From Antedon mediterranea (lineage: Eukaryota > Echinodermata > Crinoidea > Comatulida > Antedonidae), in assembly GCF_964355755.1 (NCBI RefSeq), contig NC_092672.1:37196501-37260500 (forward strand): a stretch of 64,000 nt of DNA. The letters run 5' to 3'. Below, one piece after another: positions 27,155 to 53,418 of this stretch (positions within the stretch are counted from its first letter, which is position 1; every line of letters starts with the position of its first letter). The notes beneath the pieces are model-generated. The model was not told the DNA's origin, ran no database searches, and worked only from the letters and a program-made list of their open reading frames with translations. The translations under genes were made by a program, and so were the position numbers.

Positions 27155-27765
27155 GCATATAACCATATAACTACATAACGCTGTGGTGTGTATCACACAT
27201 TGTGGCTTCTTAATTAAACAAATTAATTAACAAAAAATTAAAAATCCGGCTCTATAGCTTTGAGGACATGTCCCTGTAGTATGTTCATGCCAAATCCCAG
27301 CTCAATACTACAACGAATAAGGGAGGAGTAGTACTTTAAAAATCGCACTTTTTACTCAATAGTGTCCAGATGGAGGAAGAAGAGGAGAAAATGAGTAAGT
27401 CCTAGACTCGGGTACCCCGAGTAAAAAGCACGAATGTGCGATACTCAGGGTGCAGCAAAAGAAGCTGTAATGACGTCATAAGACGGGATGTGACGTCACA
27501 TACACATCAATAACCTACCAAATACGGCTATATGGTACCATCTTCGAGACGTCATATGGCTGCATCCGGATTGAAATCTAAAAATCCGGCTCTATAGATT
27601 TGAGGACATGTCCCTGTAGTATATTCATGCTAAATCCCAGCTCAATACTACAACTAATAAGGGAGGAGTAGTACTTTAAAAATCGCACTTTTTACTCAAT
27701 AGTGTCCAGATGGAGGAGGAGGAGAAAATGAGTAAGTACTAGACTCGGGTACCCCGAGTAAAAAT

Positions 27766-28260
27766 GGGTGGCTACAGGCCGGGACATTCACATATTAACA
27801 ATTATTTACACTTGAAGCTTTTGTCTTTGTTTTAAATTTCCTGCTTTATAAGCAACCATTCCTGCTTTGTACACCATAGCTTTTGGAAGCGTGCCTTTAT
27901 AACTATGCCTTTTGTTTGTTAACATCTTTGATTGGCTGATTTGTTTTATTATGTAATTTTGTGACTTATATATGTTATCCTTTGTTACAATTCTTTTCAC
28001 CTGATGATGGGCTATGCCCAAAACATGTCGTTAAAATAAATCTATATTGAGGCAGTTTTAACTTATTTGATCTTGATTTTTTTCTATATCCTGCCTATGC
28101 AGCTCTTTGATTTATATATATATATATATATAAATTGCAGATCCAAATAGTTTATCTAAAACAATAGGCTATTGTATACGACTTCCTGATGACTCACTTC
28201 TATTAGTATTAAGCACTATGAGACAACTGTGTCACTTATGTTTTATATTTCACCTGAAGA
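27766..28260 (+). mobile_element. Penelope-like terminal sequence in plus orientation, copy A
   Basis: Inverted copy of 25600-25870 plus further tail (GAGGCAGTTTTAACTTA), running to a truncated family-2 motif (CACCTGAAGA at 28251-28260) where a deletion joins GGCAAATTACTG. Confidence 0.55.
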
Positions 28261-28857
28261 GGCAAATTACTGAGAAAAATGACAATGCTGTGGGTATCAG
28301 TGGCTGGATCTCAATGGAGATACAAAAATAAAAAGCGAAAAGCTAAATCAAAACGATAAAGTAAACAGCCAGAAAAGTTAGCAGAGCTTTCGGGCAACAC
28401 TAGCCCTTCATTAGTGCAAGTGAAGGAATTTGGATAACGTCATATAAAGCTGGCAAGTGCTGCCTGGGTGGACATGAATAAAAGAAATATAACAAAGGGA
28501 GCCAGGGTGGAGTCTGAATAAGAGTGGTAAACAAAGAAGGTAGCTTGGTAGAGATATAAACAATTTATATATATATATATATATTAATGTCCTCATCTTT
28601 ATCGTTTCAAATTAATTAATTAAATTTCAGTATATCACCGGGCGGTTTAGAATTAATGTTCTTTGCCTGATTTGTTTATATATATTAATGTTCTTATATA
28701 ATTTTAAAAAAAAGGTAATGGTCGTAGAAGAAGAATACAGAGTATCTCCTAGCACACCGTTACGTAATATCTGGTAACTACACGTTTCTATTAGGAAAAG
28801 GAACAGGTGTGGAATGTTAACAATTTTTTGATTAAATCAATTTTAAAAACAACTCCC

Positions 28858-29220
28858 TTGAGTGAGTGGCCGAGCGGTTAAGACAGTGGAACCGTAATTA
28901 CGTAGCCATAACATCGGCAGGGGTTCGAGGCTCACTCGCTCCATGGTTCTGGTTGTAAAACGAGTCTTCTCGGATAAGGATCTAAACCGTAGGTCCAGTG
29001 TACACATCTAGCTCGTGTGCACTTTAAAGAACCTAGTACATCTTTTGAGACGAGTAGGGGGTTACCCCGGTGTATTAGTATATCACAGCCACTGATCAGG
29101 GAGTTGTTATTACAACTAACTAATAACAACTCCCCGCACTGATCACCAACTGGGCCCTCTGGGAGACCAGTCTTTGACTGAAGAGGTTACCCAGTATAAA
29201 TATAAATTTCAATCAATTAA
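28858..29220 (+). mobile_element. tRNA-derived SINE, copy 2
   Basis: Head GAGTGAGTGGCCGAGCGGTT with B-box GGGGTTCGAGGC. The same body is interrupted near its 3' end by a short palindrome (GGGAGTTGTTATTA / TAATAACAACTCCC). Partner at 38704. Confidence 0.8.
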
Positions 29221-29686
29221 CCCTACTCACATCAGTTAACATTGTCTTCAAATACATGTTGAAACCAACAAACTTCTTATTGTTTACGATAAAAAAATAT
29301 ATTATAGTAATTTCGATAAACAGTATAATAATATTTATAAAACTATTACAAACATTAATTCAATCTGGCCTATACGTGACCTTAAATAAACTGGAAACAT
29401 TGTATGTAAATGTTGCTTAATGCAGTTACGTTCAAACAGCAAAATACCGGAATGTGCAAAATGAACTTTCGAAAAATGAACTATCATAAACATGTTTCTG
29501 CTGAGCGTATATACACCTCACCTCACATAACATCTCTGTGACATCACTGGAGTTTAGATAGGTATATTATTACAGTAGGCCTACTGTAGATAATGCGCGC
29601 GCGCGCGAAGTGTGTGCTAGCATGGTGGCAATTTCAGCCAAAATCTAGACACAGCTTATAAACGTGCCGATTTGATTCAGCATAAT

Positions 29687-29885
29687 TCAACTTTCAACAG
29701 ATTCACTTTGATGTCGTTTTTTAACCATCTGATCACTTGTACTTGCATCGGATTCAGTAAATGTTACATACTGAGTATCTACAAATGCAAGCTTTTGGAG
29801 CATAAGGTCAAAGGTCGAATACAACTCAGCAAATGTTGGTCTTTGGGATGGAAAGGCTTTCCAGCATTTCGTCATCACTTCGTAC
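29687..29885 (-). CDS. Duplicated terminal RTK exon in copy A, orphan or alternative 3' exon
   Basis: Same length (199 bp), acceptor and stop position as RTK exon 9 at 39478-39676. The frame is fully open and only two residues differ (LMLQK for LMLQQ; DAST for DAIT). No other kinase exon is present nearby. It may be a passenger of the segmental duplication, an alternative downstream last exon of the same receptor (same strand, 9.6 kb further on), or the remains of a lost paralogue. The intact frame fits a recent duplication as well as retained function. Confidence 0.6.
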
Positions 29886-30076
29886 CTGTAAAAGAGGTTT
29901 CATTTTTTAGGCTCATAAGTTATTAGTTGATTCAGCTATAAATGAATGAAAAACCGAAAATGCATAAGCTATGTACTTGGTGATTAACCCAACCCCACCC
30001 CGTTTTTCGGCCAAACAACATTTTTTTTTTAGTTCGTTTAAAGTTTTCGCAAAAGTAAGAAGTGTTTTCAATTAAA

Positions 30077-33644: not shown

Positions 33645-34148
33645 AGCCTATAGTCTGTTGTACTTCCGATATACTGATATGAGGACTGGCGGTAATGAAA
33701 ACAATAATACCCACATATGTCTATTTTAAGAAACTCTCGAAAATCATTATTATCATTTAAATAATTTATTTAAATTTTCATAATTTAAAAACCATATTTT
33801 TTAGAAATTAACATTTCAAAATGCTAACTGTAAGCCTAATATGAAAAAGCAATTTATAGAATTAACTATTCAAAACATTAAAGCTCTTGGAAATCTAGAC
33901 CGGATAAAATGTATTTCTATTTTTATTTTGCTTACATTGACACACCGGAATACATAAACATAATAAACTTGAGAGTAAACATCTAGGCCTAAAACATGTG
34001 AATCGGCACCCAGTTAATATTGTCATTGGCAATCTTGGTAGGTAATTAAAGTAAAGCAATCAATCAATAAATTTACCGAGTTTCTCATGCAAATTCATAA
34101 GTACTAAATTACAATAATTTGATTAAACAAGAGAGTCATGATCCAACA

Positions 34149-34480
34149 ACGCAAAGTGAGTGAAGGCCAAGCGGTTAAGACAGTGGAACCGTAATAACTT
34201 AGCCTATTAACAGCAAGGATTCGAGCCTCACTCGCTCCATGGTCCTGGTGGTAGAACCAGTTTTCTCGGATAAGGACTATAAACCGTAGGTCCAGTGTAC
34301 ACATCTAGCTCATGTGCACTTTAAAGAACCTAGTACATCTTTCGAGACGACTAGGGAGTTACCCCGGTGAACTAGTACACATCCACACTGGCATAACTGA
34401 TACGCTGTTTAGGGACACCCTCTGTAAATAAGGTGAAAAAAAAATAAATAAAAAAAAACAAAAATAAATTAAATAAAAAA
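34149..34480 (+). mobile_element. tRNA-derived SINE, copy 3 (partner of copy 1)
   Basis: Same head, body and A-rich tail as 23067-23430, with scattered substitutions and small deletions. Confidence 0.8.
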
Positions 34481-34590
34481 AGCTTGTGAACTAAAACGAA
34501 AAACAGGACAACACGTGACCAGAAACCAGAAAATCAAATGCAATGGAGTTTCAGAATAAATAACAAATAATAAATCATAAAAATAACTAA

Positions 34591-35413
34591 GGGCCTGTTT
34601 CTGCTGCAACTGCTCAAAATACGGTATAAAAATACGGTATAAAATACGGTATTTTTTATACCGTATTTTTTAGTACCCCGTTTCTGCTAACAATACTTCT
34701 TGGGTGGTCGTGTTAAATTTCATCTTTTTTACCCAAATTGCCATTCATTTATTTGATCGATAATTAAAAGTTGAAATAAAGGAAGTTTTACGTCTCACTT
34801 TCAACAGCCTAGCCCTAGTGATAGAGATGTTGTGAGAGCACAGAAAACATCGTAATGGGGACAATTAATTCGTTCCCTCCCCGAGTTATTGTATTTTGCA
34901 ATGTTGTACTGCTTTCGCAGGCTCTTCAGCTTTGAGTTTACTTGCTTTGGAGACAAGTTTATTCCATACTCCTGCTTTATTTTTTTAGAAATGTCTTTAT
35001 AAATGTGGTTGTCCCTTTTATTACCTTTTAGTTGGTCAGACATTTTAGCTTCCCCACACACATTTATTTAGTAAAACTGTGACGTATTCGCTCCACATTT
35101 TCGCCGAATATATCTATACATGTGTGTAAAGCAGCTAACAGCGACAGAAAATAAAAACACGAATGGTGACCTTTTGTCATGTAAAAAAAAAATACGGTAT
35201 TTTTTATTGGCAGCAGAAACGGGTACAAAAAATACGGTATAAATTTGTAAATACCGTATTTTATCCACAAATTTTGTGGGGAAAATACGGTATACAAAAT
35301 ACGGTATATTTTTTATGAGCGCAGTTTCTGCTGCCAAAAATATACCGTATATATACGGTATTCAAAAAATACCGTATAATATACGGTGTTTAGTTGGCAG
35401 CAGAAACAGGGCC
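34591..35413 (-). mobile_element. PIF/Harbinger-type DNA transposon with Myb-like ORF, 823 bp
   Basis: Terminal inverted repeats GGGCCTGTTTCTGCTGC / GCAGCAGAAACAGGGCC flanked by TAA (34588-34590, 35414-35416). The empty site is preserved in copy A (AACTAATTTATA at about 23548). A 3-bp TWA target duplication and GGGCC-type ends are Harbinger hallmarks. Both subterminal regions carry clustered ATACGGTAT palindromes. No transposase is present, so it is non-autonomous. Confidence 0.85.
34801..35061 (-). CDS. Myb/SANT-like protein fragment of the Harbinger element
   Basis: An 86-codon frame: KDISKKIKQEYGINLSPKQ, then VNSKLKSLRKQYNIAKYNNS. This resembles the Myb/SANT-like (trihelix/MADF-type) DNA-binding domain encoded as the second protein of PIF/Harbinger elements, which helps bring transposase to the ends. 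Only this domain is left; a tryptophan-based first helix is not evident. Confidence 0.6.
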   Translation of the reverse strand: MCGEAKMSDQLKGNKRDNHIYKDISKKIKQEYGINLSPKQVNSKLKSLRKQYNIAKYNNSGRERINCPHYDVFCALTTSLSLGLGC

Positions 35414-36532
35414 TAATTTATATATAATCGGTGTGAGTAAACATCCTGAAATTGAAGACAACATTTTCCCTGAATTTTGGTTATTGATATTTATAAATAA
35501 AACATTAGGTTACATGAGTAGAAAAACAGGATGTGAATGAAAATAGGTTCGTAGGCCTGTATTGCTACTAATAGTTCTGTAGGGATTTGTTTCATTTTCT
35601 TTCTCGTACTAAAATCTATTCATACAATGTCAATCAATCAAAATCAATCAATAATAACATAACCCATTTTCTTTTCTCTTTCAACAAAATAACAATTTAA
35701 ATATAAATAATAAAGAGGCAAACCCCGGGAAGAACATAATTTGGTCTCCCTCCAAAAAAAAACGTGTGGCGGGTTAAGAAAAAAACAAGTTGTAATCATC
35801 CTGTATAAAATCACTTACTTATCCTACAAGACTAAAGAAGACTAAATACATTCGCCAATTTGGTTCAGCAAATTACACAAGAAACTCAAATCGCGAAAAT
35901 AAAAGGTCGCGAAATAGTTGAAAATGTAAAATCGTGAAAATTTAGGGCCGCGAAAATGTTGGGCTTTACAGCATTCATTTTCATCCAAACATAATTATAA
36001 ACAACAAGAAGATAGTGATTTATTTTTATTTCAAGCAATATCATAAATTACATTGAAAATACAAAAAAAACGTGGAAATGTTGAACAATTAACATTAAAG
36101 AAAGCATTGCGGTAAACATTAGCAATATTATATTAAAAAATAAACTATATTAATAACCGATTATCTTAAAAATACTTTATCATGATCCATAATTCACATG
36201 AGACTCACATGTGACGCTATATCACGGAATCGACTATAATATTGTTTGTAGATACATTACTTTTGTACTGAAAGGGAATGTAGTAGTCTTTTGGCATTTT
36301 AAGTACATTTAATTACATGGGACATTTATTAAAGGTGTATTACGTCACTGAATACGTCACGGTTTTTAGTTCAAAATTGTAAGTGAATATTATAATAAAT
36401 CCAAAGGCAAATTACTGAAAATAATGACAATGCTGTACTGGGTATCATTAGCTGGATCTCAATAAAGATACAAAATGAATAAAGCAAAAAGCTCAATCAA
36501 AACGATAAAGTAAAACATATAGAAAAAGTAGC

Positions 36533-36563
<31 letters not shown>

Positions 36564-36664
36564 ACGCGCGTGCGTACAACTGAGGACTAGTGCTGTTCCG
36601 CCGTACCACGCCGAGAATGTTAAAGAGTCGTTATCCGATCGAGTTAAAGAACAATACCATGAAA

Positions 36665-36736
36665 GCCCCAGTGGTCTAATGGTTAGGGCAACTGCATATC
36701 AAGCAGACGGTCCGAGTTCGAGTCTCGGTTGGGGCG
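36665..36736 (+). tRNA. tRNA-like gene with anticodon AUC (copy B)
   Basis: Identical 72-nt sequence to 24843-24914, with the same TTTTT terminator. The flanking difference (a long TA run upstream) shows the tRNA part is better conserved than its surroundings. Confidence 0.7.
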
Positions 36737-36844
36737 ACTTTTTCTCATTCTCACAGATTTCCTCATCTTTATCGTTTCAAAAATTAATTAAATAATTTTC
36801 AGTGTATCACCAAGCGGTTTGGAATTTATTTCTATGCCTGTTGT

Positions 36845-36878
<34 letters not shown>

Positions 36879-37099
36879 CCAAAGGCAAATTACTGAAAAA
36901 AATGACAATGCTGTGGGTTTCAGTGGCTGGATCTCAATGGAGATACAAAAATAAAAAGCGAAAAGCTAAATCAAAACGATAAAGTAAACAGCCAGAAAAG
37001 TTAGCAGAGCTTTCGGGCAACACTAGCCCTTCCTCAGTGCAAGTGTTTATATATAAAAATCAAGATCAAATAAGTTAAAACTGCCTCAATATAGATTTA

Positions 37100-37142
37100 T
37101 TTTAACGACATGTTTCGGGCATAGCCCATCATCAGGTGAAAA
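37100..37142 (-). ncRNA. Hammerhead-like motif (family 1), minus copy in B
   Basis: Intact core elements (GAAAC and CTGATGA on the minus strand), facing the plus copy at 37644. Confidence 0.45.
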
Positions 37143-37643
37143 GAATTGTAACAAAGGATAACATATATAAGTCACAAAATGAAATTTAAAACAAAGAAAA
37201 AAGCTTCAAGTGTAAATAATTGTTAATATGTGAATGTCTCTGGCAAAATTAATGTTTAAAGGATCTAAATTGTACATTTATGCCGGTAGGGGCAAGAGTG
37301 CCAAGCTTTACAATTATTCTTTCTTCTATAATTCTACGAGATGTCTCAGAACCATTACATACTTTAACACCAGAAATTGTAATATCCGAAAGGGAATGCT
37401 CATTATTACAAAAATGGGTGGCTACAGGCCGGGACATTCACATATTAACAATTATTTACACTTGAAGCTTTTGTCTTTGTTTTAAATTTCCTGCTTTATA
37501 AGCAACCATTCCTGCTTTGTACACCATAGCGTTTGGAAGCGTGCCTTTATAACTATGCCTTTTGTTTGTTAACATCTTTGATTGGCTGATTTGTTTTATT
37601 ATGTAATTTTGTGACTTATATGTGTTATCCATTGTTACAATTC

Positions 37644-37686
37644 TTTTCACCTGATGATGGGCTATGCCCGAAACATGTCGTTAAAA
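37644..37686 (+). ncRNA. Hammerhead-like motif (family 1)
   Basis: CTGATGA, stem II GGGC/GCCC with an extra unpaired T, GAAAC, tiny stem III (ACATGT), GTC cleavage triplet, and stem I TTTTCAC/GTTAAAA with one mismatch. Other copies: 27994-28036 (core G changed to A), 25619-25661 and 37100-37142 (minus strand). Confidence 0.45.
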
Positions 37687-37889
37687 TAAATCTATATTGA
37701 GGCAGTTTTAACTTATTTGATCTTGATTTTTTTCTATATCCTGCCTATGCAGCTCTTTGATTTATATATATATATATAAATTGCAGATCCAAATAGTTTA
37801 TCTAAAACAATAGGCTATTGTATACGACTTCCTGATGACTCACTTCTATTAAGCACTATGAGACAACTGTGTCACTTATGTTTTATATT

Positions 37890-37945
37890 TCACCTGAAGA
37901 GTGCGGCCAGCTACATGCTGGTCGTACGAAACAAATTTGTAGTGA
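37890..37945 (+). ncRNA. Type I hammerhead-ribozyme-like motif (family 2), copy B
   Basis: Same core and stems as 25279-25334. Confidence 0.55.
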
Positions 37946-37980
37946 TTAAAACAATGAAGTAACCAAGTTTTCTGCTGTTA

Positions 37981-37990
<10 letters not shown>

Positions 37991-38055
<65 letters not shown>

Positions 38056-38103
38056 TCTCAGTAATTTGCCTTTAGATTTATATATATATATATATATATA
38101 TAA
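37991..38103. repeat. Long TA microsatellite with internal hairpin
   Basis: Runs of (TA)n interrupted by TTTTTCTCAGTAATTTGCC, whose inverse complement follows at 38106-38129. It forms a large hairpin and probably marks deletion hot spots between duplication copies. Confidence 0.7.
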
Positions 38104-38275
38104 ATCTAAAGGCAAATTACTGAGAAAAATGACAATGCTGTGGGTATCAGTGGCTGGATCTCAATGGAGATACAAAAATAAAAAGCGAAAAGCTAAATCA
38201 AAACGATAAAGTAAACAGCCAGAAAAGTTAGCAGAGCTTTCGGGCATCACTAGCCCTTCATCAGTGCAAGTGAAG
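38061..38275 (-). repeat. Penelope-associated repeat block (GGCAAATTACTG family)
   Basis: Runs from GGCAAATTACTGAGAAAAAT to CTAGCCCTTCATCAGTGCAA. The same block occurs at 25393-25560, 28261-28430 and 36876-37045, and partly at 24545-24660 and 36403-36510. On the minus strand it ends in CTGATGAAGGGC...GCCCGAAAG-like sequence, a decayed hammerhead-like core. Confidence 0.55.
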
Positions 38276-38703
38276 GAATTTGGATAACGTCATAGTATAA
38301 AGCTGGCAAGTGCTGCCTGGGTGGACATGAATAAAAGAAATATAACAAAGGGAGCCAGGGTGGAGTCTGAATAAGAGTGGAAAACAAAGAAGGTAGCTTG
38401 GTAGAGATATAAACAATTTATATACATATATTAATGTCCTCATCTTTATCGTTTCAAATTAATTAATTAAATTTCAGTATATCACCGGGCGGTTTAGAAT
38501 TAATGTTCTTTGCCTGATTTGTTTATATATATTAATGTTCTTATATAATTTTAAAAAAAAAGGTCATGGTCGTAGAAGAAGAATACAGAGTATCTCCTAG
38601 CACACCATTACGTAATATCTGGTAACTACACGTTTCTATTAGGAAAAGGAACAGGTGTGGAATGTTAACAATTTTTTGATTAAATCAATTTTAAAAACAA
38701 CTC

Positions 38704-39060
38704 CCTTGAGTGAGTGGCCGAGCGGTTAAGACAGTGGAACCGTAATTACGTAGCCATAACATCGGCAGGGGTTCGAGGCTCACTCACTCCATGGTTCTGG
38801 TTGTAAAACGAGTCTTCTCGGATAAGGACTATAAACCGTAGGTCCAGTGTACACATCTAGCTCGTAGAACCTAGTACATCTTTTGAGACGAGTAGGGGGT
38901 TACCCCGGTGTATTAGTATATCACAGCCACTGATCAGGGAGTTGTTATTACAACTAACTAATAACAACTCCCTGCACTGATCACCAACTGGGCCCTCTGG
39001 GAGACCAGTCTTTGACTGAAGAGGTTACCCAGTATAAATATAAATTTCAATCAATTAACC
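38704..39060 (+). mobile_element. tRNA-derived SINE, copy 4 (partner of copy 2)
   Basis: Near-identical to 28858-29220, including the internal palindrome. About 14 bp of the body (GTGCACTTTAAAGA region) are missing. Confidence 0.8.
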
Positions 39061-39477
39061 CTACTCACATCAGTTAAAATTGTCTTCAAATACATGTTGA
39101 AACCAACAAACTTCTTATTGTTTACGATAAAAAAATATATTATAGTAATTTCGATAAACAGTATAATAATATTTATAAAACTATTACAAACATTAATTCA
39201 ATCTGGCCTATACGTGACCTTAAATAAACTGGAAACATTGTATGTAAATGTTGCTTAGTGCAGTTACGTTCAAATAGCAAAATACCGGAATGTGCAAAAT
39301 GAACTTTCGAAAAATGAACTATCATAACATGTTTCTGCTGAGCGTATTATACAGTTACTAGGCCTACTGTAGATAATGCGCGCGCGCGCGCGAAGTGTGT
39401 GCTAGCATGGTGACTATTTTGTATCAGCCAAAATCTAGACACAGCTTATAAACGTGCTCTTATAGATTCAGCATAAT

Positions 39478-39676
39478 TCAACTTTCAACAGATTCACTTT
39501 GATGTCGTTTTTTAACCATCTGATCACTTGTAATTGCATCAGATTCAGTAAATGTTACATACTGAGTATCTACAAATGCAAGCTGTTGGAGCATGAGGTC
39601 AAAGGTCGAATACAACTCAGCAAATGTTGGTCTTTGAGATGGAAAGGCTTTCCAGCATTTCGTCATCACTTCGTAC
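39478..39676 (-). CDS. RTK exon 9: terminal kinase exon with stop
   Basis: 199 bp including the stop. Encodes [20 protein letters not shown], the last kinase helices with the invariant Arg of QRP, then a tail ending [16 protein letters not shown]. It lies in copy B of the segmental duplication and has a near-identical paralogous exon at 29687-29885. Confidence 0.9.
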
Positions 39677-42600
39677 CTGTAAAAGAGGTTTCATTGTTTA
39701 GGCTCATAAGTTATTAGTTGATTCAGCTATAAATTAACTCCCGCTGTTTTGATTTACGTATTTCATCGTGTTATTTATAAATAAATGATTGATAAATTAT
39801 CTCCGGTAATTTGAATTTAACTTTTATCGATTTCAATCGATAATTGATCAATTCATTATTATTCGAAACATGATGATGATGTTTTTTCCACATGTGCACT
39901 GTATTGTTTACGATCATATTAATGTAATATAATGCTTTATTATTGATGCAACTTTATACTTTATTAATCAGTTAATAATGGGAAAATGACATAAACAGAG
40001 GCACGATTAAAGTGTAATGTATGTTGCGCTTGGTTAGCTGCTGTAAAGTGTGTGTGCATTTGATTTGGTAAAGCCATGAATCTGAATTAAACCACTAAAA
40101 TTAAGTTACAAATATGTTAAAGTTACACAATTGCGACAGGTCACCCGAACTCATTGGCCGTCATTGCATATTATTACCCGTATCTCATTGCGACGATGCG
40201 TGCGTAGTTGATATTAAAATACCATTTTAAATATTTTCGATTGTTGATTTGTTTATAATCTGTTTCGAATAACGCAATTAAATCTCTGGAATTCAATGAA
40301 ACGTAAATTGCTGTGGGGCCTATAATGTATCTTACTTCTATGGCAATGTTTTAAGGTATTATGAACCATACGTAGGCATATTAAAAATGTAGGCCTAATG
40401 AACGACCCTCTAAAAATGTTAATGTTGACAACTTAAACGGTGCTTGTATGGTAGCACTGCTTGTGTCATTATTAGTTGTGAAGAAACTGTACTTTCAAAT
40501 GCATTAAAATTGAAATTATATCTTTCAATATCATACATGCCAGACCAGGTGCATAGACAGCTTTCATGTTAAAGAATGCTAAGCATTACATTTGTCATGC
40601 AAACATTGACGTCAAAACTATGTGAATGCTATGAGTTACTTTGAAAGTACAGTACATTGACATTGACGTTTTTATTATTTTTAGGGAATGACGTCATGAA
40701 GGACTTTTTTGTTTATGCCAACATATCTTCGCGCATCCAAAACGTCGGGGTGAAAAACCGAAAATGCATAAGCTATGTGCGTACACATTTCTCCGGTGCA
40801 AAAACAAATACATAAAAATATTTCAACGTAATTATAGCTGTTTGTTCATAATAGATACACCATCGTGGTCATCCCACCATTTACTTAAAGTAAAGTAAAT
40901 AAATTCTATCGTAAAAAATAAAGCACCAAAGAAGATACTTCATAAAGCGACATGTCTGACGTCACAGCGTCGGAAATACATCCGTTTTTACGGGGCGCGT
41001 ATAAGGACATTATTTTATTAATGTACGGTATGAGCGGCCGTTATGACCAGAATAGACAACATTTACGGACTATTCTTGCGATATCGGCCGCCCATAATAA
41101 TTCACAGTAGAAACACTTACACTTCGCGTGGACATTGTCTTGGCTGCGGCATACGGTACCCATCTATGAGCTTGTCAGTCAGGTCACTAAGTGAGATGTC
41201 TGGATAAGGAGGCGAGCCTAACGTAATGATTTCGTACAATAAAACGCCGAATGACCATCTGAAAACAAAAACATTATAGGAGGATTTATTCATAAAGTTA
41301 ATTTTATAGGGGCTCTCGATTCGAGTTCAATTGTATTTTTTTTTTTACCGGCCCTCGCGTATCACACGAATAATCACAGATGAAGCCTTCGATTTAACCT
41401 AAGTTATGTAATGTAAGTCATTCACTCTATTCATCTACACAGTTTTGTGGTTAAACTGTAGACAGACGACATAATTATTATTCTTAATTATAGTGTGGGT
41501 CCTCCATGGTCCTTGGTTGTTAGTCATGCGGCATATGTGGCCGGAAACTACGTCCATCGTCCACCTTGGTAACCACCTTGGTAAACCAATAATATTGATT
41601 CATTGCACGCTATAATAATATGTGGTTAGGGTTATCAGCCATTGTTTCATACTGCTGATAGCCATTACTCCCACAATTGGGAATTCATGTACCCACGTAG
41701 TAGGCCTACTTAAAATCTTAAACACACATCGATGACGTAGGCCTACACACCTTAACCAATAGTTGACCAATCACAAAGTTATAATCATTTGTTGCTTGCG
41801 ATTGATCAAAATCTTGAGTTATGCGCAGGTCATTGCGTTGTATCCTAGTAAGACCTGAAATGTCGTAAAATCTCTCGATAGCTGAGTATTTAATCTAATC
41901 AACCTCGTGTCGAAATTGTTCTTTTATATATTTTTGTCGCATTGTCAGTGCCCTGAAAATTATTGTCTTAAATAAAGGTCAAATCCTACGCAACTTCCTA
42001 AATACTACTTCCGGAAATTGTCTTTCCGACCGTGATCACTGTGATCTGATCCATCCTACATCCGCCCGCGCTTAGAAATCAAAATTTGCATTGGTATGAC
42101 ATCCGGGAAATATTAACCTTTAGAGGTCGGCTTTTCCACTTCATATATTATTCCTTATTATTATATTTAACAAAAAACAAAAACAAATCTTCACAGATTT
42201 ATTCAAATTAAATTAGGTAGACCCCACTTTAATATTTAACCTATGGTTGACTAATTCCAATTCGAGTTTGCATTGAATTTACTGTACTATTTTTAATATT
42301 AAATATATTTTCCCAGAGTTTCTATAGACAAGTTTATAAGCGTCTTGTGGCACGGATTTGGTACAGTACATATTTATATATTGTAAATGTGGGTATATTA
42401 TATCTCCAATCAACATATTTGTTTATACAAAAAGTACGTTACTGATTCTTTACTCCATGCTGAGCCAATATCAAATTTATTGAACCAAAAGAAACAAACA
42501 ATTCTGACTTACACGTCACTTTGTATAGTACACAATCCTTCTCGAATAGTTTCAAGCGAAACCCAGGCAATGGGTCGTTTTCTCTCAGGAGCAAGTCGTT

Positions 42601-45600
42601 TGTACCCCCGCATGTAAATATCATTAGCAAGGCCAAAATCAGACACTTTTACTGTCAAGTTCTCGCCCACTAGTATGTTTCGTGCGGCTAAATCTCCATG
42701 GTAGTACCGGGTTTTTGATAAATAATTCTGAGAAAATAAATTAATCATTGTATTAATTAATTGGTTTTTCATGGTAAACGCAAGGTTAAATATTAAACGT
42801 AGTCGTTTTTGACAATATACATAATTATTTAATTAAAGATTAATACAATAACATCCGCTAGCAATGCAATCGTCAAAGAGACAAGCGTCGTTGTGTCAAA
42901 GTTCAATTATTGATGATGTGAAGTAAACCAAGATTGTATATAGCCAGCTTATTAGACCTCTCTGGAATTGAACCATTTTAAAGCTGGCGCGCGGACAATT
43001 CTCTTCAGTGAGCGCGGTGAATGCAGTTAGCAAAGGTTATTTAGAAGTCTCTATTATGTGGCCTAATTTGTGAATTCACTAAAGTTGACACTCTTACTCT
43101 TGACACTATTTGGTGGTCAATGTGGAAACAAGCCGAATATTTATTATCTTCCACTGGGACGCAACGGATGACGTAAGCGCAACGCAAGTGAGTTTAACAA
43201 TGACAAAGCGACAGTTCGGAAAATTCATTTTACTTCTGACTAGTCAAATTACATGCGGTGTGCTTACGTCCTTGCGTTACGTCCTAGTGGAAACTAGGCT
43301 AAAGCAATGTTTCACTGAAAGAGCACCGCCGACGTTAATGAGAACCTGTGGCCGTATTCACCAATCACACTCAAGTGATTTTAACCCTAGACACCCTGAA
43401 AAAGTTATTTTTAAACACAAATTTGCAAGAACCAATTGTCTAAAATTCTCGTTATTCAATCAGTTTCCACGTATTTGGCAAAATACCCCTGACCCCATCA
43501 AAGACCGATTATTATTTAGCTTCAGCCAATTTAAAAATTCTCTTCATTCAACTATTACTGAACTTTAAATTGTGCATTTCTTTGTGTAATTACAATTATT
43601 TCTTATAATTGTTGATTGCTCAATTTGTTTTTGCCTTTTTTGTTTTGAATTTTTGCTATTTATGTCATATTGTAGTTTTCATATTTTTGATCTTTTGATC
43701 TGTATTTTATATATTTTAAAGTTTTTGTGTGTCTTCAATTTTTATGTGATTTATGTATGTGGTTTGGAGTATTGGAGAGCCACTTTGATAGTGCTTGCAC
43801 TGTTGGCAATCCACAGGGTACTCCATCCACACTTCGTTTGTTAATGTTGTTGTCTGTATACCTGGAAATTGAATAAATAAATTAAAAAAAATAAATAAAT
43901 CTATGATAAAAGTGTTTTCCTTAGCAAGTGTCAAATTGGGCAGAGAATACACAAGAAAAATACTGGTACTGAAACCATATATGCATTTTAGGAAATAGGA
44001 TCATTTTCAGCCCCTGAGCCTAACGACTTACATACCATTGCCTTAGCTACTTGTCTTGCTATATTATACATATCAGTTTCCTTAAGACAATAAATCGGAT
44101 CGTCCACATAAATCCCATGTTCTTCAACAACCTAAAAAAGTACAAATCAATAAAGTAGTAACAGAAGTAAACATTCTTATTTATACATTTGTCATGCTCC
44201 CAGCCGATATTCTTAATATGAAAATGTATAAGAGTGAATGTTCGTAATGTTAGCAGGCATAACAAATAATGAACAATATTCATAATTTTAGAAGATAATT
44301 TGTACAGTATTAATACAAAAAGATCAATACTACATGCACTGTACGATCATGAATATAAAAGCATTATATTAAATTTATTAAAGTAATTGATAGTGTCATT
44401 CGGGATATTTAACTAATTACTCTTCGAATTTTAATTAGGTTATAAATTATAAATGAAGTTAAGATTATAAGTTAATGGAAACGAATTAACTCGAAATGTC
44501 ACTAAAAACACAATAATTGACTAATTTAAATATTTGAGAAGATTTTTTTTCTTTGAAATACACACTAATAAATCTCAAACATCGAGACTCACTGAATCAA
44601 GGCTGTGAAATAAAATAGAAATAGATGATATAAATATATCGTCGTCGTTTCATAAAATATATTTTGATAAAAATAAACTGTGACAATTATTTCACAGGAA
44701 AAGACTTACCTGTCTACACGTTCTAAGAAATCTTAGCAGGTCACCGTACTTCATTAGTTCGGTAATCAGCAAATATGGTTCTGCTATCATACAGCAGCCA
44801 ATAACTGCTATTATATTCGGATGTTTTCCAATATTAAGTAATAATTTAATTTCATCGACAAAATCCTCTTTTTGTTCCTGGTTTGCTGTAACTATAAACA
44901 TAAAAAAAGTTTTATAAATTTCTGCAACAAGAACAATATGAACCATGTATCTGGGGTGTTTTGGCTTGCTACAACAAGAACAACATGAAACATGTATCTG
45001 GGTTGTTTTGGCTTGCTGCAACAAAAACAATATGAACCATGTATCTGGGTTGTTTTGGCTTGCTGCAACAAGAACAACATGAACCATGTATCTGGGTTGT
45101 TTTGGCTTGCTGCAACAAGAACAACATGAAACATGTATCTGGGTTGTTTTGGCTTGCTGCAACAAGAACAACAACATGAAACATGTATCTGGGTTGTTTT
45201 GGCTTGCTGCAACAAGAACAACAACATGAAACATGTATCTGGGTTGTTTTTGCTTGCTACAACAAGAACAACATGAAACATGTATCTGGGTTGTTTTGGC
45301 TTGCTGCAACAAAAACAACATGAAACATGTATCTGGGTTGTTTTGGCTTGCTGCAACAAAAACAACATGAAACATGTATCTGGGTTGTTTTGGCTTGCTG
45401 CAACAAGAACAACATGAAACATGTATCTGGGTTGTTTTGGCTTGCTGCAACACGAACAATATGAACCATGTATCTGGGTTGTTTTGGCTTGCTGCAACAA
45501 GAACAACATGAAACATGTATCTGGGTTGTTTTGGCTTGCTGCAACAAAAACAACATGAAACATGCATCTGGGTTGTTTTGGCTTGCTGCAACAAAAACAA

Positions 45601-48600
45601 CATAAAACATGTATCTGGGTTGTTTTGGCTTGCTGCAACAAGAACAACATGAAACATGTATCTGGGTTGTTTTGGCTTGCTGCAACAAGAACAACATAAA
45701 ACATGTATCTGGGTTGTTTTGGCTTGCTGCAACAAAAACAACAACATGAAACATGTATCTGGCTTGTTTTGGCTTGCTGCAACAAAAACAACATGAAACA
45801 TGTATCTGGGTTGTTTTGGCTTGCTGCAACAAAAACAACATAAAACATGTATCTGGGGTGTTTTGGCTTGCTGCAACAAAAACAACATGAAACATGTATC
45901 TGGGTTGTTTTGGCTTGCTGCAACAAGAACAACATGAACCATGTATCTGGGTTGTTTTGGCTTGCTGCAACAAGAACAACATGAAACATGTATCTGGGTT
46001 GTTTTGGCTTGCTACAACAAGAACAATATGAACCATGTATCTGGGTTGTTTTGGCTTGCTGCAACACGAACAATATGAAACATGTATCTGGGTTGTTTTG
46101 GCTTGCTACAACAAGAACAACATGAAACATGTATCTGGGTTGTTTTGGCTTGCTGCAACAAGAACAACATGAAACATGTATCTGAGTTGTTTTGGCTTGC
46201 TGCAACACGAACAATATGAACCATGTATCTGGGTTGTTTTGGCTTGCTGCAACAAGAACAACATGAAACATGTATCTGGGTTGTTTTGGCTTGCTGCAAC
46301 AAGAACAACATGAAACATGTATCTGAGTTGTTTTGGCTTGCTGCAACACGAACAATATGAACCATGTATCTGGGTTGTTTTGGCTTGCTGCAACAAGAAC
46401 AATATGAACCATGTATCTGGGTTGTTTTGGCTTGCTGTAACAAGAAAACATGAAACATGTATCTGGGTTGTTTTGGCTTGCTGCAACAAGAACAACATGA
46501 AACATGTATCTGGGTTGTTTTGGCTTGCTGCAACAAGAACAACATGAAACATGTATCTGAGTTGTTTTGGCTTGCTGCAACACGAACAATATGAACCATG
46601 TATCTGGGTTGTTTTGGCTTGCTGCAACAAGAACAATATGAACCATGTATCTGGGTTGTTTTGGCTTGCTGTAACAAGAAAACATGAAACATGTATCTGG
46701 GTTGTTTTGGCTTGCTGCAACAAGAACAACATGAAACATGTATCTGGGTTGTTTTGGCTTGCTGCAACAAGGACAACATGAAACATGTATCTGGGTTGTT
46801 TTGGCTTGCTGCAACACGAACAATATGAACCATGTATCTGGGTTGTTTTGGCTTGCTGCAACACGAACAATATGAACCATGTATCTGGGTTGTTTTGGCT
46901 TGCTGCAACAAAAACAACATGAAACATGTATCTGGGTTGTTTTGGCTTGCTGCAACAAGAACAACATGAAACATGTATCTGGGGTATTTTGGCTTGCTGC
47001 AACAAAAGCAACATGAAACATGTATCTGGGTTGTTTTGGCTTGCTGCAAAAAAAACAACATGAACCATGAATCTGGTTTTTTGGCTTGCTGCAGCAAGGA
47101 CAACAAACATGACATTGTATATAGCTTGCTAAACTAATAAAAGTTTTATGTAATGAAATACAATGACTGAATAATGTAAACGCGTTTATAATGTAGTGTG
47201 TAACGCGTTTGTGATGTAGTATGTAATAGTACAAAGGTAAATGTTGAATCTTTTGTCGTTCTAAAAAGGTTAATTAGGGCGTTAAATTACAGACATCTTT
47301 ATACCGAAAGTTAAAAATGTTTGAAGAAGATTAAATGAATGTACATCATCATACTCTCAAATGTTACAATTTTTTCTAGTTTAAAGCAACGAGGTGAGGA
47401 ATATTTGGTAACCTACCGCCAACGCTTTTGACTGCAACCTGAACGAGATTGTCTTTTGATAAACGCAGAATGCCTTTGTGTACGACACCAAACTTTCCAT
47501 GGCCTAACCTTTCCCCAATCTGCAAACATCTTCGATTGATTTCGTGTTCTTTGTAGCTATGGTCTCGAACTGGCAAAGATATAATTCGCCGATCTGCTAC
47601 TTTTGGAGGCTTCTCTGTTTAAAAAAAAGATTGATTGATTGAAATCTTTGTCACAAAATGTTTTTATATATTTATTTTCCCAACCAACAGTAAACTCAAT
47701 GTTCAGTATTTACAGGAGGGAGAATAAAAAATTATCTTAAAAATGTATTGTCTCCCTGAAAAAATAATCCTTAACAAAAATGTTTTTGAATATGCCATTT
47801 TAATGTAGCATAATAGTTATCCACTTTGACCAAAAATTGGATCGAAAAAAATGTATTTACCTGAAAAAAACTGTAATTTAAAGCAAAAAATGGGCAAAAT
47901 AACATATTCAAAGTCTGATTTAATTAGGCCTAATCTTCATTTTTCATGTTTTTTGGGGGACAATACATCTTTAAGATAAAAGAAACTTCATTAAATCAGA
48001 GAATACTCTCGAACATTACATAAAACATACCGCTCATTCGATTACAAAAAAAAACAACCAAAATCCAATATCTGTGTCGATGTTTCCATAAATGAACAGT
48101 TTCTTAAAATACTCTTACGTAACCCATCTCTATCTCCTACTAGCGCATCTTTATTTAATATCATTTTAAAGACCTTTGTAGTATAGATATCAAAATTGTC
48201 GTATAATACACATTAGTGTGTGACTATTATCATGTAAGGTAAGGTTACCAGATATTGATGAATTACATGAAATATAGCTTTCCGCACACTTCTCTATTTT
48301 TTTTTATATACATTAAACTAATGAATATTAGTAACTACGTCAACATTATTTAAGATGATGTTTATGTTAAGCAGTATAGCCTTCACTATAAGTGGTGCAT
48401 AATGTCAGTCCAATGTCCATATTATTCATGCATCATAAAATCTTAGCGTTTGTATTATTTAAAGCGTTTGTATTAAATTTAACTCAAATTTGAGTACGCG
48501 ACTGCAGCCATGTATATGGCCTTGTTTACAATTAATACGAATATTTTAAATTTTGAATATTCTCGCTTGTCTATTAATGCTATTGGTGGCGTTTTGATAA

Positions 48601-51600
48601 TACTTTGAATGCTAAAATATATATTATAGGATATAATACAAGGATATGATGAAGATATATTAGTCGGGTTTTTAAAAATACCAATATGAAAAGTATTGTG
48701 AACAGTTTACGAGCGGCTGATCCCTTCAACCTCATTTAATCTTTATAACCAAGTGAAGGCACGGACACCTTCTATAATATCAGCTGTCTCTTACCAATAA
48801 ACTTTCCTTTGATTGAATCCATAATAGGTTTGTGAGTGACTATGACAAGTATCAGCAGAATAAACAAGCCGAGTGTTAAAAATATGTATGGCTTAATCTT
48901 GAAGTCCTTATCCTTAATGGGAATTATATTAACAGAATCAAGTGTAGTACTATCAAGTGTAGTACTATCGGTTGTACCTGAAAATAAACAATAAACGTTC
49001 TTAAGCTCTGTCTACACTATCAAACTTTATGTTAAAAAAAAGTGATGTGCCCATAATATAGACATGATGATGTCCTATCACTACCATATTTGGGCATACC
49101 ACTGCCATATTTGGGCACATCACACCCATTTTGATAGTGTAGACAGAAAAGAGAGAGAAAAAAACTTGAATTTTGCATTTGTTTTAGATTTTATCAATTA
49201 TATTTTGGCCCGAAAATTTTAATTTGATAAATGACTATCGATTGTATTGCTATACGAGGATCATAACATTACATATGCATGTACATTATTTCTGTATGTT
49301 ATATGAGGACTACAATTATCAATGATTAGATATAGATTGCAAAACAAAAATCCAAATACGCATCATGGACGGTAATCTGCGCATGTCTAATCAATCGATT
49401 TTTTGTGGAAGAGATGGACAGGGTTTGAAGACATGCGCAGATCTAACAATTTATGTCGCATTCAATTCAATTCAAAAACTTTATATATACTCGAAATATT
49501 AAAGATAACAGTAAAAAATATATACATATACAATACAGTATATCACAATGCTTGTTCGATAGCCTTCTGTAATCGAAAATTAATCAATAATCGATGGCTA
49601 TCACAAATATGAGAAAGAAAAAATTATATTTACTTTGTGTCCGCACGATGACGTTACACGCGTTACTGCTACTCGAGGCGACGCAGATCCGATCTGAACT
49701 CCTGCATTCTGAAGCCTTACATTTGCAGCTGGCTTCATCACTTTTATCTTCACAGTCATAAACCGCGTCACACACAAACGCGCCAGCAACACACTGTCCA
49801 TTATGACAATGAAACTCATTTTCCTCACATTTACAATTAAACTCATCAGCTTCATTTGAACAATCAACCCGGCCGTTACATTTATGCGCTAGTAGGACAC
49901 ACTCGCCATCTCCACAGTCAAATTCAGAATCGGAGCAACTGCAGTCGTATTCATCGGTGCCATCTGTACAATCCATCGTTCCGTCGCACATCAGTCGATT
50001 GTCGACGCATTGGCCATCGTTACAGCGATATTCTCCTGTGGTACATGTGCAGTTGAATTCATCCGATGAATCAGCATGGCAATCTATTCTGCCGTTACAT
50101 ACAAACCGGTTGCCGATGCAGCTACCGTCTGCGCACGTAAATTCGTTAACCGTACATCCGCAGTCAGTTTCGTCAGAGCCGTCGGGACAATTTGTACGGT
50201 GATCGCACACCCAACTTTTCTTAATACATGTTCCATCATTGCACTTAAATTGGTTATCAAAGCATAAGCAATGTTTTTCATCACCGCCGTCAGGACATTG
50301 TTGTTGGCCATCGCATATTCTATGACCAGGGATACACATTCCATTCGAACACTTGAAATCTTTAGAATCTTTACAACTGCAGTAATGAGCAATTTCATCA
50401 GAGAAATCTGGGCATTGACCGCTACCATCACAAACGAATTTCTCATCGATGCAGATGCCGTTATCGCACGTGAATTCCGAGTCAACGCACGGACAGTTCA
50501 TTTCATCATAACTACTTTGTTCGCAGAAGACGTGTCCATCGCATTTTGCATTACCACCCATGCAAAGTCCGTTTGGGCAGCGACCGTTACCGTGACAGGA
50601 GCAATTCCGCTCGTCATTTCTGTTTAAGCAATCGTAATGTCCATTACATAAAAATATCCGTAGTATATCAGTTCCGTTACCACACGGAATCCTACAACCC
50701 TGTTCATCTGAGCCATCCATGCATTGGTTTTTTCCATCACATATAAAATAATTTCTTAACTTCCTACCATCACCTGGACAGGTGTAAGCATACTCGCACT
50801 CGTTCTCATCCGTACCGTCACTGCAGTCATTGATGCCGTCACAAATTTGTAATTCCTCATAACAGTTACTCTCGCTTTCGCACCTGTAATTATTCGGACA
50901 TTTTGTACAATCTGTCTCGTCAGATGAATCGACGCAGTTATCATGCCCGTTGCAAACATCATTCTTTTTTATACACTCTTTACTCTTGTGACACTGAAAC
51001 TCGCTTTCTGAACACGTCCCGCACAGTTGGGCCAGCGTACCAATAACAGGCGTACAGTCCGATTCGCACGCCGCATCTATGGCCATGCATCTACCGTCAT
51101 CGCATCGAACTTGGTCCTCGTCAAAACAGCAGTTCAACTCGTCAGAGTTATCACTACAGTCGACTTTTTTGTCACATCGATGATCATTTGAAATACAAAA
51201 TCCGTTACCACATGTAAACGCATCGACGCCACAACCACAATTGTATTTCTTGAACTCGTCGACGCTATTAGAACAGTATGCGATATTCTGGCATACTTCC
51301 TCGCCACTAATACATACATTCTGATCTCCTTTACAAAGAAACTCGTCATCTGCACATACAACTTGGTCCGTTTTGTCACATCCGTCTGTATGACACATAC
51401 CATCAGGGCACAACACAGCGTTCCCAGTACACATACTGCAGTTTGACTCATCTGATCTGTCCGCACAGTTATCCACCCCGTCACATCGTAACTGGTTGGC
51501 GATACAGAAATTGTCCGTGCAGCGAAATTGATCGGAAGCACAGGGGCAGCCGATTTCGTCACTGTTATCATTACAGTCTCCTTCGCCATCGCATTTCCAT

Positions 51601-53418
51601 AGCACTGAGATACACATAGCTGATGGAAGGCTGCATTTAAACTCTTCTTTGGTACATTCACAGTATTTTTCGTCTGAAAAATCTTCACAATCAAAATGCA
51701 TATTGCATGCTTCTTCTGGTTTAATGCACTCATTATCATCGCACTGAAAGAACGATTTCCCACAACCTATATAAAATATGAAAAAAATATTATTTTCAAA
51801 AAGTAGTTTATTTATAACAAGCCTACAAACAGATTGTGCGATTTTAATTAATAATTATTGACTCTGTAATTTTTAAAAAATGTAAAAAAGAAACAATTAC
51901 AGGCCTACTATTTTTATTCCTTAAACAAATATTCTGAATTTAAATAAATCTTGGAATCTTCCCTAATTACATTATTAGACAGTAGTCTAATTAAAACGAT
52001 GGTCAATGTACTTCCACAGTCATCAGCGTTGGTGCAAATTTATATTTTTAGATAGTGTTTTTGTGGAAATTTCTATTGTTAGTTTCTTGGTAAAATCTGT
52101 TTCTATTCGTTCTGTATGTTTTGTATGAATGTAGTATCCGATAAAGGAAATTAATGGATTTTTTTTGTTTGCGCTTTTAATCATTTCTCATTATTCTTCC
52201 TTGTCATTGAACTATAGTAATATCTATATTTTTTAACACGAGCATATGATAACATCATTTCCAGTTATTTGAGATGGTGCACGATAAGTAGGCCTACACC
52301 GGTAATCCACGTCTGCAATGATTACCTTCCACATGACCCAAGTAGGCCTACAAACAGGATGTTATCATGAAAAGGTGGAGTTCGAAATTTGAAAGTATTA
52401 AACAAAATAATAAACGACGGCCTCAATTGCATTTTACACCATTACAGACAAACAAAACAGTATATGGACATCCATTTGGTTATAACAGATTCTATTTTAG
52501 GACTGCACCCCCCCCCCCCCTCCCCACGGATCTTATGTGGCCCTGATCAGTGTTCAGAGGAAAAAAACAGGCATTAAAAAAATGTCTAAAAGCACCCGAG
52601 ACCTCCAGCGTTGGTGGGCCACTTGGGGTTCCTAAGGCAGCGTTACGCCAATGCACCCACTCTCGTTTCACCGTATACCCAAGAATAATATGATTTATGG
52701 TTGCCGAAAAGATTGATGGGAAGAACAATCGAATGTGGGTTGGCGCCTAAAGGAAACGTTCTGATAGATGGATGGGTGAAGACGGGTAGATGGATGGGTG
52801 AAGAATAACGGGTAGGATGGATGGGAAATTAAATGTTCTGATGGGTGGGTAACGAAATGTAAATCATAATAATATCATAACAAGTGAAGAAAATGCTATG
52901 TACGTCCAAGGTCCAAATTATTACAGAATCTCAAAATAGGCTATAGTTTAGATTGATTTTTTTTTATGAGTTATGTCCCAAAATGAGAACGTAATCTCTA
53001 ACTGTATATATATATCTGATATATTATCTGATTTTATGGAAGTTTATTATGATAATACTCCAGTAAGATGAAAACATTATTGGGTCTTGCTATGAAAGCA
53101 TGATTAAAAAGAGACTGGGTGCAAAATGCTGCAGATCAAACATGACGTCCAAAACATTCAAAATTTTCAATCATGTTTTAGGATCTTAATGCACCACAAT
53201 AAATACATTCTTAACTTCAAACTGGTCAGCAAGTAGGCCTATTTGTTTGTGTCAACAACGACTGAACGTCGAGTTCTCTAATTCACAGACGGCGAATGTG
53301 CACGTCACTTGATACCAATACAAAACGACCTACCTGTAGAATTGCCAACTTGCTTAGTTTCCCCCGATTGAAACACATTGAATAACACAATTAATAAATA
53401 TAATAAATGAACAAACAT
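39478..53418 (-). CDS. LDLa-repeat receptor tyrosine kinase, complete gene, nine coding exons
   Basis: Type I membrane receptor predicted to bind an extracellular ligand and phosphorylate tyrosines. Coding exons in transcript order: 53418-53334, 51766-49634, 48977-48795, 47614-47417, 44891-44710, 44131-44036, 42727-42513, 41258-41121, 39676-39478. All have GT/AG borders and agreeing phases, and sum to 3,429 nt, giving 1,142 residues plus stop. Domain order: signal peptide (about 1-22), about 18 LDLa modules (about 30-735), Ser/Thr/Asp stalk, transmembrane helix (about 765-783), juxtamembrane, kinase (about 825-1105), short tail. Kinase landmarks seen: GHGKFGVV loop, VAVK lysine, DEIKLLL helix-C Glu, HGDLAARN catalytic loop, DFG, SLE in place of APE, WSFGV, QRPTF. 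HGD replaces HRD, but the catalytic Asp is kept. Family-level assignment as a receptor tyrosine kinase is firm. I do not recognise a named orthologue; ALK/LTK carry only one LDLa module. The splice model is read by eye. Confidence 0.9.
39677..41120. other. RTK intron 8
   Basis: Includes about 1 kb (39735-40750) that is absent from copy A, and the distal end of the duplication near 40779. No features recognised. Confidence 0.5.
41121..41258 (-). CDS. RTK exon 8: C-lobe helix F/G
   Basis: 138 bp, phase 2 at both ends. Encodes [20 protein letters not shown] followed by [17 protein letters not shown], the conserved helix F-G region of tyrosine kinases. Acceptor GTTTTCAG, donor GTAAGTG. Confidence 0.9.
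41259..42512. other. RTK intron 7
   Basis: AT-rich intron with two TAGGCCTA sites and a small GGTTATCAGCC/GGCTATCAGC hairpin. Nothing coding. Confidence 0.5.
42513..42727 (-). CDS. RTK exon 7: catalytic and activation loops
   Basis: 215 bp, phase 0 in, phase 2 out. Encodes [17 protein letters not shown], then [20 protein letters not shown] and [10 protein letters not shown]. The catalytic Asp and the AARN tyrosine-kinase signature are intact. The HRD Arg is Gly, and the APE region reads SLE. Activation-loop tyrosines are present (DIYMRGYK). HGD forms are known in some invertebrate receptor kinases, so this does not by itself mean an inactive enzyme. Confidence 0.92.
43149..43292. mobile_element. 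Foldback MITE related to 61800-61976
   Basis: Ends TTCCACTGGGACGCAACG and, inverted, TTCCACTAGGACGTAACG. The interior has AACGCAAGTG and TTACGTCCTTGCGTTACG as in the 61.8-kb copy. It lies in an RTK intron. Confidence 0.6.
43310..43900 (+). mobile_element. 5'-truncated LINE 3' end in an RTK intron
   Basis: The frame ends with [19 protein letters not shown], then [15 protein letters not shown] and a stop, the typical C-terminus of non-LTR retrotransposon Pol. A 3' UTR and an (AAATA)n tail end near 43900. Antisense to the RTK gene. Confidence 0.65.
44036..44131 (-). CDS. RTK exon 6: kinase insert and helix E
   Basis: 96 bp, 32 codons, phase 0 at both ends. Encodes a short kinase insert ([15 protein letters not shown]) and [17 protein letters not shown], the start of helix E. 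The acceptor follows a T run; the donor is GTATGT. Two tyrosines in the insert could be phosphorylation sites (inference). Confidence 0.83.
44710..44891 (-). CDS. RTK exon 5: helix C to hinge
   Basis: 182 bp, phase 1 in, phase 0 out. Encodes [20 protein letters not shown] (helix C with the salt-bridge Glu), then VIGCC and [16 protein letters not shown] (beta-5, gatekeeper region and hinge). The acceptor (TTTATAG) lies about 30 bp from the minisatellite. The same frame stays open upstream into the repeat, so intron retention would not be stopped at once. Confidence 0.9.
44922..47110. repeat. 47-bp minisatellite, about 46 units, inside an RTK kinase intron
   Basis: Tandem units of 47 bp built on AACATGTATCTGGGTTG and TTTTGGCTTGCTGCAACA, with sparse substitutions and occasional 46- or 50-bp variants. 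Because 47 is not a multiple of 3 and the minus strand of the unit has no stop in any frame, every minus frame reads a 47-residue Cys-rich repeat. Open frames of 780, 416, 367, 334 and 259 codons result. A five-unit block of 234 bp is duplicated exactly at 46317 and 46551 (higher-order repeat). The array lies wholly between kinase exons 4 and 5, so it is intronic and not a protein gene. Confidence 0.92.
47417..47614 (-). CDS. RTK exon 4: glycine-rich loop and catalytic lysine
   Basis: 198 bp, phase 1 to phase 1. Encodes the juxtamembrane region and start of the kinase N-lobe: [18 protein letters not shown], with a GxGxFGxV nucleotide loop and VAVKSV carrying the ATP-contacting lysine. One potential regulatory Tyr lies in the juxtamembrane (HSYKEH). 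Its downstream intron (44892-47416) contains the 47-bp minisatellite. Confidence 0.9.
47615..48794. other. RTK intron 3
   Basis: AT-rich; no features recognised beyond one TAGGCCTA site near 47927. Confidence 0.5.
48795..48977 (-). CDS. RTK exon 3: stalk, transmembrane helix, juxtamembrane
   Basis: 183 bp, phase 1 to phase 1. Encodes a Thr/Ser/Asp stalk with a tandem hexapeptide ([10 protein letters not shown]), then Lys-flanked [19 protein letters not shown], a clear single transmembrane segment, then a basic juxtamembrane stretch. Acceptor TTTTCAG and donor GTAAGAGAC are good matches. It links the LDLa ectodomain to the kinase exons and is the main evidence that the two belong to one receptor. 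Confidence 0.88.
49005..49146. mobile_element. MITE with CTCTGTCTACACTATCAAA ends, copy 1
   Basis: Inverted ends CTGTCTACACTATCAAA / TTTGATAGTGTAGACAG and internal CCATATTTGGGCA. Preceded by TTAA. It lies in an RTK intron. Relatives at 61531-61635 and 63911-64000. Confidence 0.7.
49634..51766 (-). CDS. RTK exon 2: single giant exon of about 18 LDLa modules
   Basis: A 2,133-bp exon (phase 1 to phase 1) encodes roughly 18 consecutive LDL-receptor class A modules of about 36-40 residues. Most have six cysteines and the Ca2+-binding signature CDG..DC.D.SDE..C. The first begins CGKSFFQC. The fourth is longer or irregular, modules 9 and 10 have altered spacing, and the last (KCKASEC...) is degenerate. 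LDLa modules bind Ca2+ and protein ligands in lipoprotein receptors and proteases. Having all of them in one exon differs from the one-module-per-exon plan of LDL-receptor genes and suggests expansion within the exon or loss of introns. Open frames in other registers over this exon are shadows. Confidence 0.93.
51767..53333. other. RTK intron 1
   Basis: AT-rich intron with a poly-C run (52509-52522), a GATGGATGGGTGAAG-like local repeat (52770-52830) and three TAGGCCTA sites. Confidence 0.5.
53334..53418 (-). CDS. RTK exon 1: start codon and signal peptide
   Basis: ATG at 53418-53416 opens a 28-codon stretch with a hydrophobic core ([15 protein letters not shown]) typical of a signal peptide, then a donor (ACAG/GTAGGT) in phase 1. 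It joins in frame to the LDLa exon, completing a Gly codon before CGK. Start choice rests on the signal peptide and the exact frame match with downstream exons. The 5' UTR and promoter are not identifiable. Confidence 0.8.

Follow-up and report, generated by a model that had tools for sequence, protein, structure and literature searches.

A predicted crinoid receptor tyrosine kinase gene with an ectodomain of about 17 LDLa modules belongs to a genomic family of HGD kinases with apparently differing ectodomains

The window analysed here, a stretch of 64,000 nucleotides of Antedon mediterranea DNA, carries on its minus strand (53418 to 39478) nine exons whose borders are all GT-AG and whose phases agree, with intron phases of 1,1,1,1,0,0,2,2 in gene order. 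A sequence-only reading had proposed a single receptor tyrosine kinase gene of 1,142 codons at this place; rebuilding the gene independently from the raw sequence bore out the main points of that description and the joined nine-exon frame, while the length becomes 1,140 codons plus stop. The exons encode, in this order, a signal peptide, an LDLa array, a transmembrane segment and, over the last six, a kinase. Exon 1 (53334 to 53418) holds the start codon and a hydrophobic leader read as signal peptide (a stretch of 28 residues) and ends in phase 1, exon 2 (49634 to 51766; 2,133 bp, 711 codons) is the LDLa array, and exon 3 (48795 to 48977) encodes a short Ser/Thr-rich stalk, one transmembrane helix (19 residues) and the start of the juxtamembrane region. 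Both exons 2 and 3 begin and end in phase 1, as does exon 4 (47417 to 47614) with further juxtamembrane sequence, the glycine loop GHGKFG and the VAVK lysine. The following exons cover helix C (DEI) to the hinge (exon 5, 44710 to 44885), the kinase D-E region (exon 6, 44036 to 44131), the catalytic loop (an 11-residue stretch) and activation loop (exon 7, 42513 to 42727), helices F-G (a 10-residue stretch; exon 8, 41121 to 41258) and the end of the C-lobe (RPTF) with a short tail and the stop codon (exon 9, 39478 to 39676); the stop-to-stop frames that bear the kinase lie between 47618 and 39478. The domain search of the translation that had been proposed as a check returned only two kinds of domain above the Pfam cut-off, LDLa (total E 1.6e-109) and tyrosine kinase (PK_Tyr, E 8.4e-85). 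A receptor tyrosine kinase layout is thereby established at the level of the gene model, with leader and transmembrane helix judged from sequence, and the gene most likely encodes a receptor tyrosine kinase with signal peptide, ectodomain, single transmembrane helix and cytoplasmic kinase in one frame.

The earlier estimate of about 18 LDLa modules was a fair one, since 17 stretches pass in Pfam and a local profile, built from those modules that stand out most clearly, counts 17 complete ones and 2-3 degenerate remnants; its claim that the ectodomain consists of LDLa only also holds in that no other domain in this part exceeds the Pfam cut-off. The array is not a chance product, because its frame stays open over 756 codons (51854 to 49584 on the minus strand, stop to stop) and the ectodomain contains 112 cysteines. 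Two in-frame donors of equal consensus score and both in phase 1 can end the exon, after 49721 and after 49634; with the former, the array would stop cleanly behind its last complete module and drop a degenerate half-module, giving a protein of about 1,111 aa. In 12 of the 17 modules, both tested positions of the calcium site still hold Asp or Asn and the closing DE is present as well. Seven modules carry an aromatic residue at the place where, in LDLR modules, such a residue packs against a ligand lysine; the meaning of the calcium-site positions is likewise established for LDLR modules. Among PDB sequences, LRP2, VLDLR, LRP4 and LDLR are nearest to the array, and we infer that the ectodomain may be a calcium-dependent, multivalent binding string. 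The exon has no near copy elsewhere in the genome, where, among the matches listed, LDLa arrays at C2:3.23-3.26, C1:2.05 and C1:29.74 Mb resemble it most, none with a related kinase nearby. Within the first of these regions, at C2:3.233-3.245 Mb, many LDLa modules are encoded in one uninterrupted open frame, whose 3,779 codons would be an unusual length for a lone exon.

The LDLa exon is joined to the transmembrane exon across an intron of 656 bp with ordinary splice consensus, and this intron together with phase, strand and order provides good but indirect evidence for the join. Since extracellular exons often have phase-1 borders, the phase agreement is weaker than it looks. The locus could instead hold two genes, one coding for an LDLa protein that is secreted or tethered to the membrane, the other for a kinase with its true ectodomain exons at another place. 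Such a division would suit the LDLa frame, which continues beyond the chosen donor and, after a short hydrophobic tail, reaches a stop at 49584, and it would agree with the other large LDLa arrays of the genome, which have no related receptor kinase in their vicinity; moreover, the joining of LDLa and kinase exons in a single transcript is a prediction from DNA. We nevertheless consider it unlikely, because both sets of exons lie in the same strand and order, the two good phase-1 donors fit the phase-1 transmembrane exon, and the sole poly(A)-like signal in the short stretch between the exons is one ATTAAA at 49223. A separate kinase would also be left without an ectodomain exon, as the rest of the window upstream of the gene has no other domain-like frame on the same strand. 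The sister loci that were read have ectodomain-type exons upstream of their transmembrane exons.

Several other features lie in and around the gene. Intron 4 contains a non-coding 47-bp tandem repeat of about 46 copies (44922 to 47105), which leaves a meaningless open frame of 793 codons. An apparent segmental duplication of about 6-7 kb (22561 to 29943 versus 33671 to 39734; about 97% identity in most pieces) has left downstream, at 29690 to 29884 on the minus strand, a second open copy of the exon 9 coding sequence with 97% protein identity. By eye, neighbouring coding exons on the minus strand appear Kunitz-like (6723 to 7067 and 11537 to 11998) or kringle-like (9438 to 9779), a 274-bp unit repeated 3.9 times (12880 to 13946, minus strand) resembles a duplicated EGF-type exon, and plus-strand frames at 5660 to 6223 and 15473 to 16744 look like retroelement remnants (reverse-transcriptase-like and gag/protease-like).

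The kinase domain is complete (profile positions 1-257 of 258 in PK_Tyr, overlapped by a Pkinase match) and keeps the catalytic Lys, Glu, Asp, Asn and DFG, while the HRD arginine is replaced by glycine, making HGD and thus a non-RD kinase. Searched against PDB, a family profile from a seven-member alignment finds FGFR1-3 (up to 297 bits, for FGFR2) and RET (291 bits) in the lead among single-domain chains. The top match overall, a tandem EGFR construct, was set aside as an artefact of summing two domains (211.6 bits per domain). By profile, the window kinase is FGFR/RET-like and not ALK-like, and the subgroup nearest to it comprises FGFR/RET/PDGFR-type kinases. The FPVR group unites FGFR, RET and PVR kinases and features a molecular-brake asparagine near the hinge (PMC8662651). 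The window kinase has a short D-E region and reads HPN in the loop between helix C and beta4, where most family members have H-x-N; this position was assigned by eye, and tyrosine kinases of other groups can have HPN as well. Among decapod receptor tyrosine kinases, HGDLA was reported as the only deviation from HRD among the classes studied, confined to PDGF/VEGF-type receptors (PMC11024359). The HGD loop and the profile rank would thus fit a place for the window kinase in the FGFR/RET/PVR (FPVR) group, at group level, though the HGD common to invertebrate PVR and the window kinase could be convergence.

A degenerate DNA pattern finds HGDLAARN catalytic exons at 15 places in the same genome and HRDLAARN at 33, with no hits for reversed control patterns, and as judged from these matches the family of related kinases to which the window kinase belongs has at least 15 members. 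Six aligned relatives are 42-61% identical to it over the domain, and identity in the catalytic exon is about 50-78%. In ten further members, the kinase introns lie at the positions and in the phases seen in the window gene wherever exon ends can be aligned, and the few mismatches in the intron table are mostly ends beyond the reach of the alignment or weak exons. By its HGDLAARN loop and these common intron positions and phases, the window gene falls within the HGD family of its own genome. This family setting also bears on the possibility that the gene is a pseudogene or encodes a catalytically dead decoy receptor, for which the change from HRD to HGD and the duplication of the last exon downstream could be cited. 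Such a fate appears highly improbable given that all nine exons are open with intact splice sites, that the catalytic Lys, Glu, Asp, Asn and DFG are not only kept but invariant in all seven aligned family members, and that HGD is fixed in the same seven and present at 15 loci; HGDLA is also what decapod PDGF/VEGF receptors read (PMC11024359).

The upstream DNA was read for nine family members, leaving out five further HGD catalytic-exon places, and the ectodomain exons found there differ: SRCR plus C-type lectin, SRCR, YWTD plus EGF, mucin-like repeats, Ig-like and TSP1-like. At C7:21.82 Mb, Pfam finds two SRCR exons (1.2e-19 and 2.5e-16) and two C-type lectin regions (Lectin_C, 1.9e-9 and 7.9e-5), and exon by exon this gene reads SRCR, SRCR, lectin, lectin, transmembrane and juxtamembrane. 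Both SRCR exons are phase 1-1, the borders between modules being in phase 1 as in the window gene, and in the first lectin there is an EPN motif such as occurs in mannose-type lectins. Upstream of these SRCR exons, at a distance of about 1-1.5 kb, a GH18 chitinase-like piece (L062:2988-3182; E 4.4e-5, below cut-off) and a frame resembling its continuation (together L062:2988-3693) form a candidate exon of the same gene or of a neighbour. The other members have SRCR (C7:21.83 Mb, 2.4e-12), EGF (5.3e-11 and 4.3e-9) with YWTD repeats (Ldl_recept_b 2e-4; C4:8.57 Mb), an Ig-like match near the transmembrane exon (V-set_CD47 1e-5; C4:23.63 Mb), Ser/Thr-rich repeats with a weak MAM match (2e-4, below cut-off; C3:7.73 Mb) or a weak TSP1 match (0.015, below cut-off; C11:1.16 Mb). 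Pieces at C11:9.15, C11:9.17 and C4:3.70 Mb look FN3-like by eye and matched no Pfam family. At C4:23.63 Mb a CUB exon (1.1e-16) lies some 6 kb further up and may belong to another gene; distant exons such as this one (in L066) could generally be parts of neighbouring genes rather than of the receptors. Strong SRCR exons number at least 150 in the genome and are clustered on C1, C3, C6 and C7.

LDLa exons were found at no other HGD member in the sequence searched. The 150 top-ranking LDLa matches include none close to an HGD kinase; the smallest distance among those listed is about 58 kb, to the C7 pair. At C2:3.23-3.25 Mb, an LDLa array was considered as a second LDLa kinase and dismissed, as the kinase fragment 33 kb downstream of it is FER/FES-like and cytoplasmic by eye. 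The earlier interpretation is sharpened by these comparisons: the window receptor is not an isolated invention, and other members of its family appear to carry other ectodomains.

We regard it as fairly probable that the gene encodes a single-pass receptor tyrosine kinase that is the LDLa variant of a shuffled HGD family. About 17 Ca2+-dependent LDLa modules, strung together flexibly, would bind a multivalent or basic-patch ligand, as the clusters of LDLR/VLDLR/LRP do; receptors would be brought together by this ligand, and the intracellular FGFR/RET-like kinase would then phosphorylate in trans and pass on the signal. As candidate ligands of a receptor perhaps specific to its lineage, the sequence-only reading had suggested lipoproteins, secreted proteins or microbes. 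It counts against this explanation that the HRD arginine is lost, a change that bears on how the kinase would be regulated. As for origin, symmetric phase-1 exon cassettes with different extracellular modules would have been joined to a common transmembrane-kinase cassette, and the window receptor is probably one variant on this common chassis, assembled by shuffling symmetric phase-1 exons; the phase-1 borders that separate modules in both the C7:21.82 Mb gene and the window gene count in favour of such cassette joining. The nearest solved relatives of the array, the cargo-binding clusters of LRP2, VLDLR and LDLR, would also suit a scavenger or endocytic receptor of the LDLR type whose kinase mainly drives the uptake of bound cargo. 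In LDLR-family receptors, cargo is released by EGF/YWTD modules; Pfam finds neither in the window protein, and the translated cytoplasmic part contains no NPxY endocytosis motif, so a primarily endocytic role seems improbable to us.

What usually identifies a family of receptor tyrosine kinases is that a given ectodomain stays paired with a given kinase. The HGD family seems to combine a single type of kinase with several unrelated ectodomains, a number of which consist of modules widespread in scavenger and lectin receptors. Should this be confirmed, it would offer a direct view of new animal receptors arising by exon swapping, along with a concrete set of receptors that may recognise ligands from microbes, lipids or cell surfaces. 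SRCR and C-type lectin modules are often found in immune recognition, and their presence in sister receptors makes a sensing role of the HGD family worth testing by analogy. More speculatively, a repertoire that swaps modules (LDLa, SRCR, C-type lectin, YWTD/EGF, Ig-like, mucin-like) on one non-RD FGFR/RET-like chassis might serve pattern recognition or self/non-self sensing via tyrosine phosphorylation, a role that we consider possible but doubtful.

In the open literature searched, outside of which most subscription papers lie, neither a receptor kinase with an all-LDLa ectodomain nor a mixed-ectodomain family of this kind is described, in agreement with the sequence-only reading, which knew of no such counterpart. 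The FPVR receptors (FGFR, RET, PDGFR/VEGFR) resemble the window gene in the profile search, where FGFR1-3 and RET are the top single-domain matches to the family kinase, in the short D-E region and in the H-x-N placed by eye between helix C and beta4, but the window receptor is without an Ig or cadherin ectodomain and has HGD in place of the usual HRD. Invertebrate PVR shares the HGDLAARN loop (decapod report, PMC11024359) and differs in its Ig-type ectodomain, that of the window receptor being LDLa only. ALK/LTK are likewise LDLa-containing receptor tyrosine kinases. They combine a single such module with MAM and glycine-rich domains, whereas the window receptor has 17 and no MAM in Pfam; membership is excluded by ectodomain content and by profile rank, ALK being absent among the 60 best profile matches. 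With LDLR, VLDLR and LRP the window receptor has Ca2+-type LDLa arrays in common, matching the clusters of LRP2 and VLDLR, and it carries a kinase instead of their EGF modules, YWTD propeller and NPxY. Unusual extracellular modules on tyrosine kinases are also known from choanoflagellate and cnidarian receptors, including the C-type lectins of Hydra Sweet Tooth and choanoflagellate receptor tyrosine kinases.
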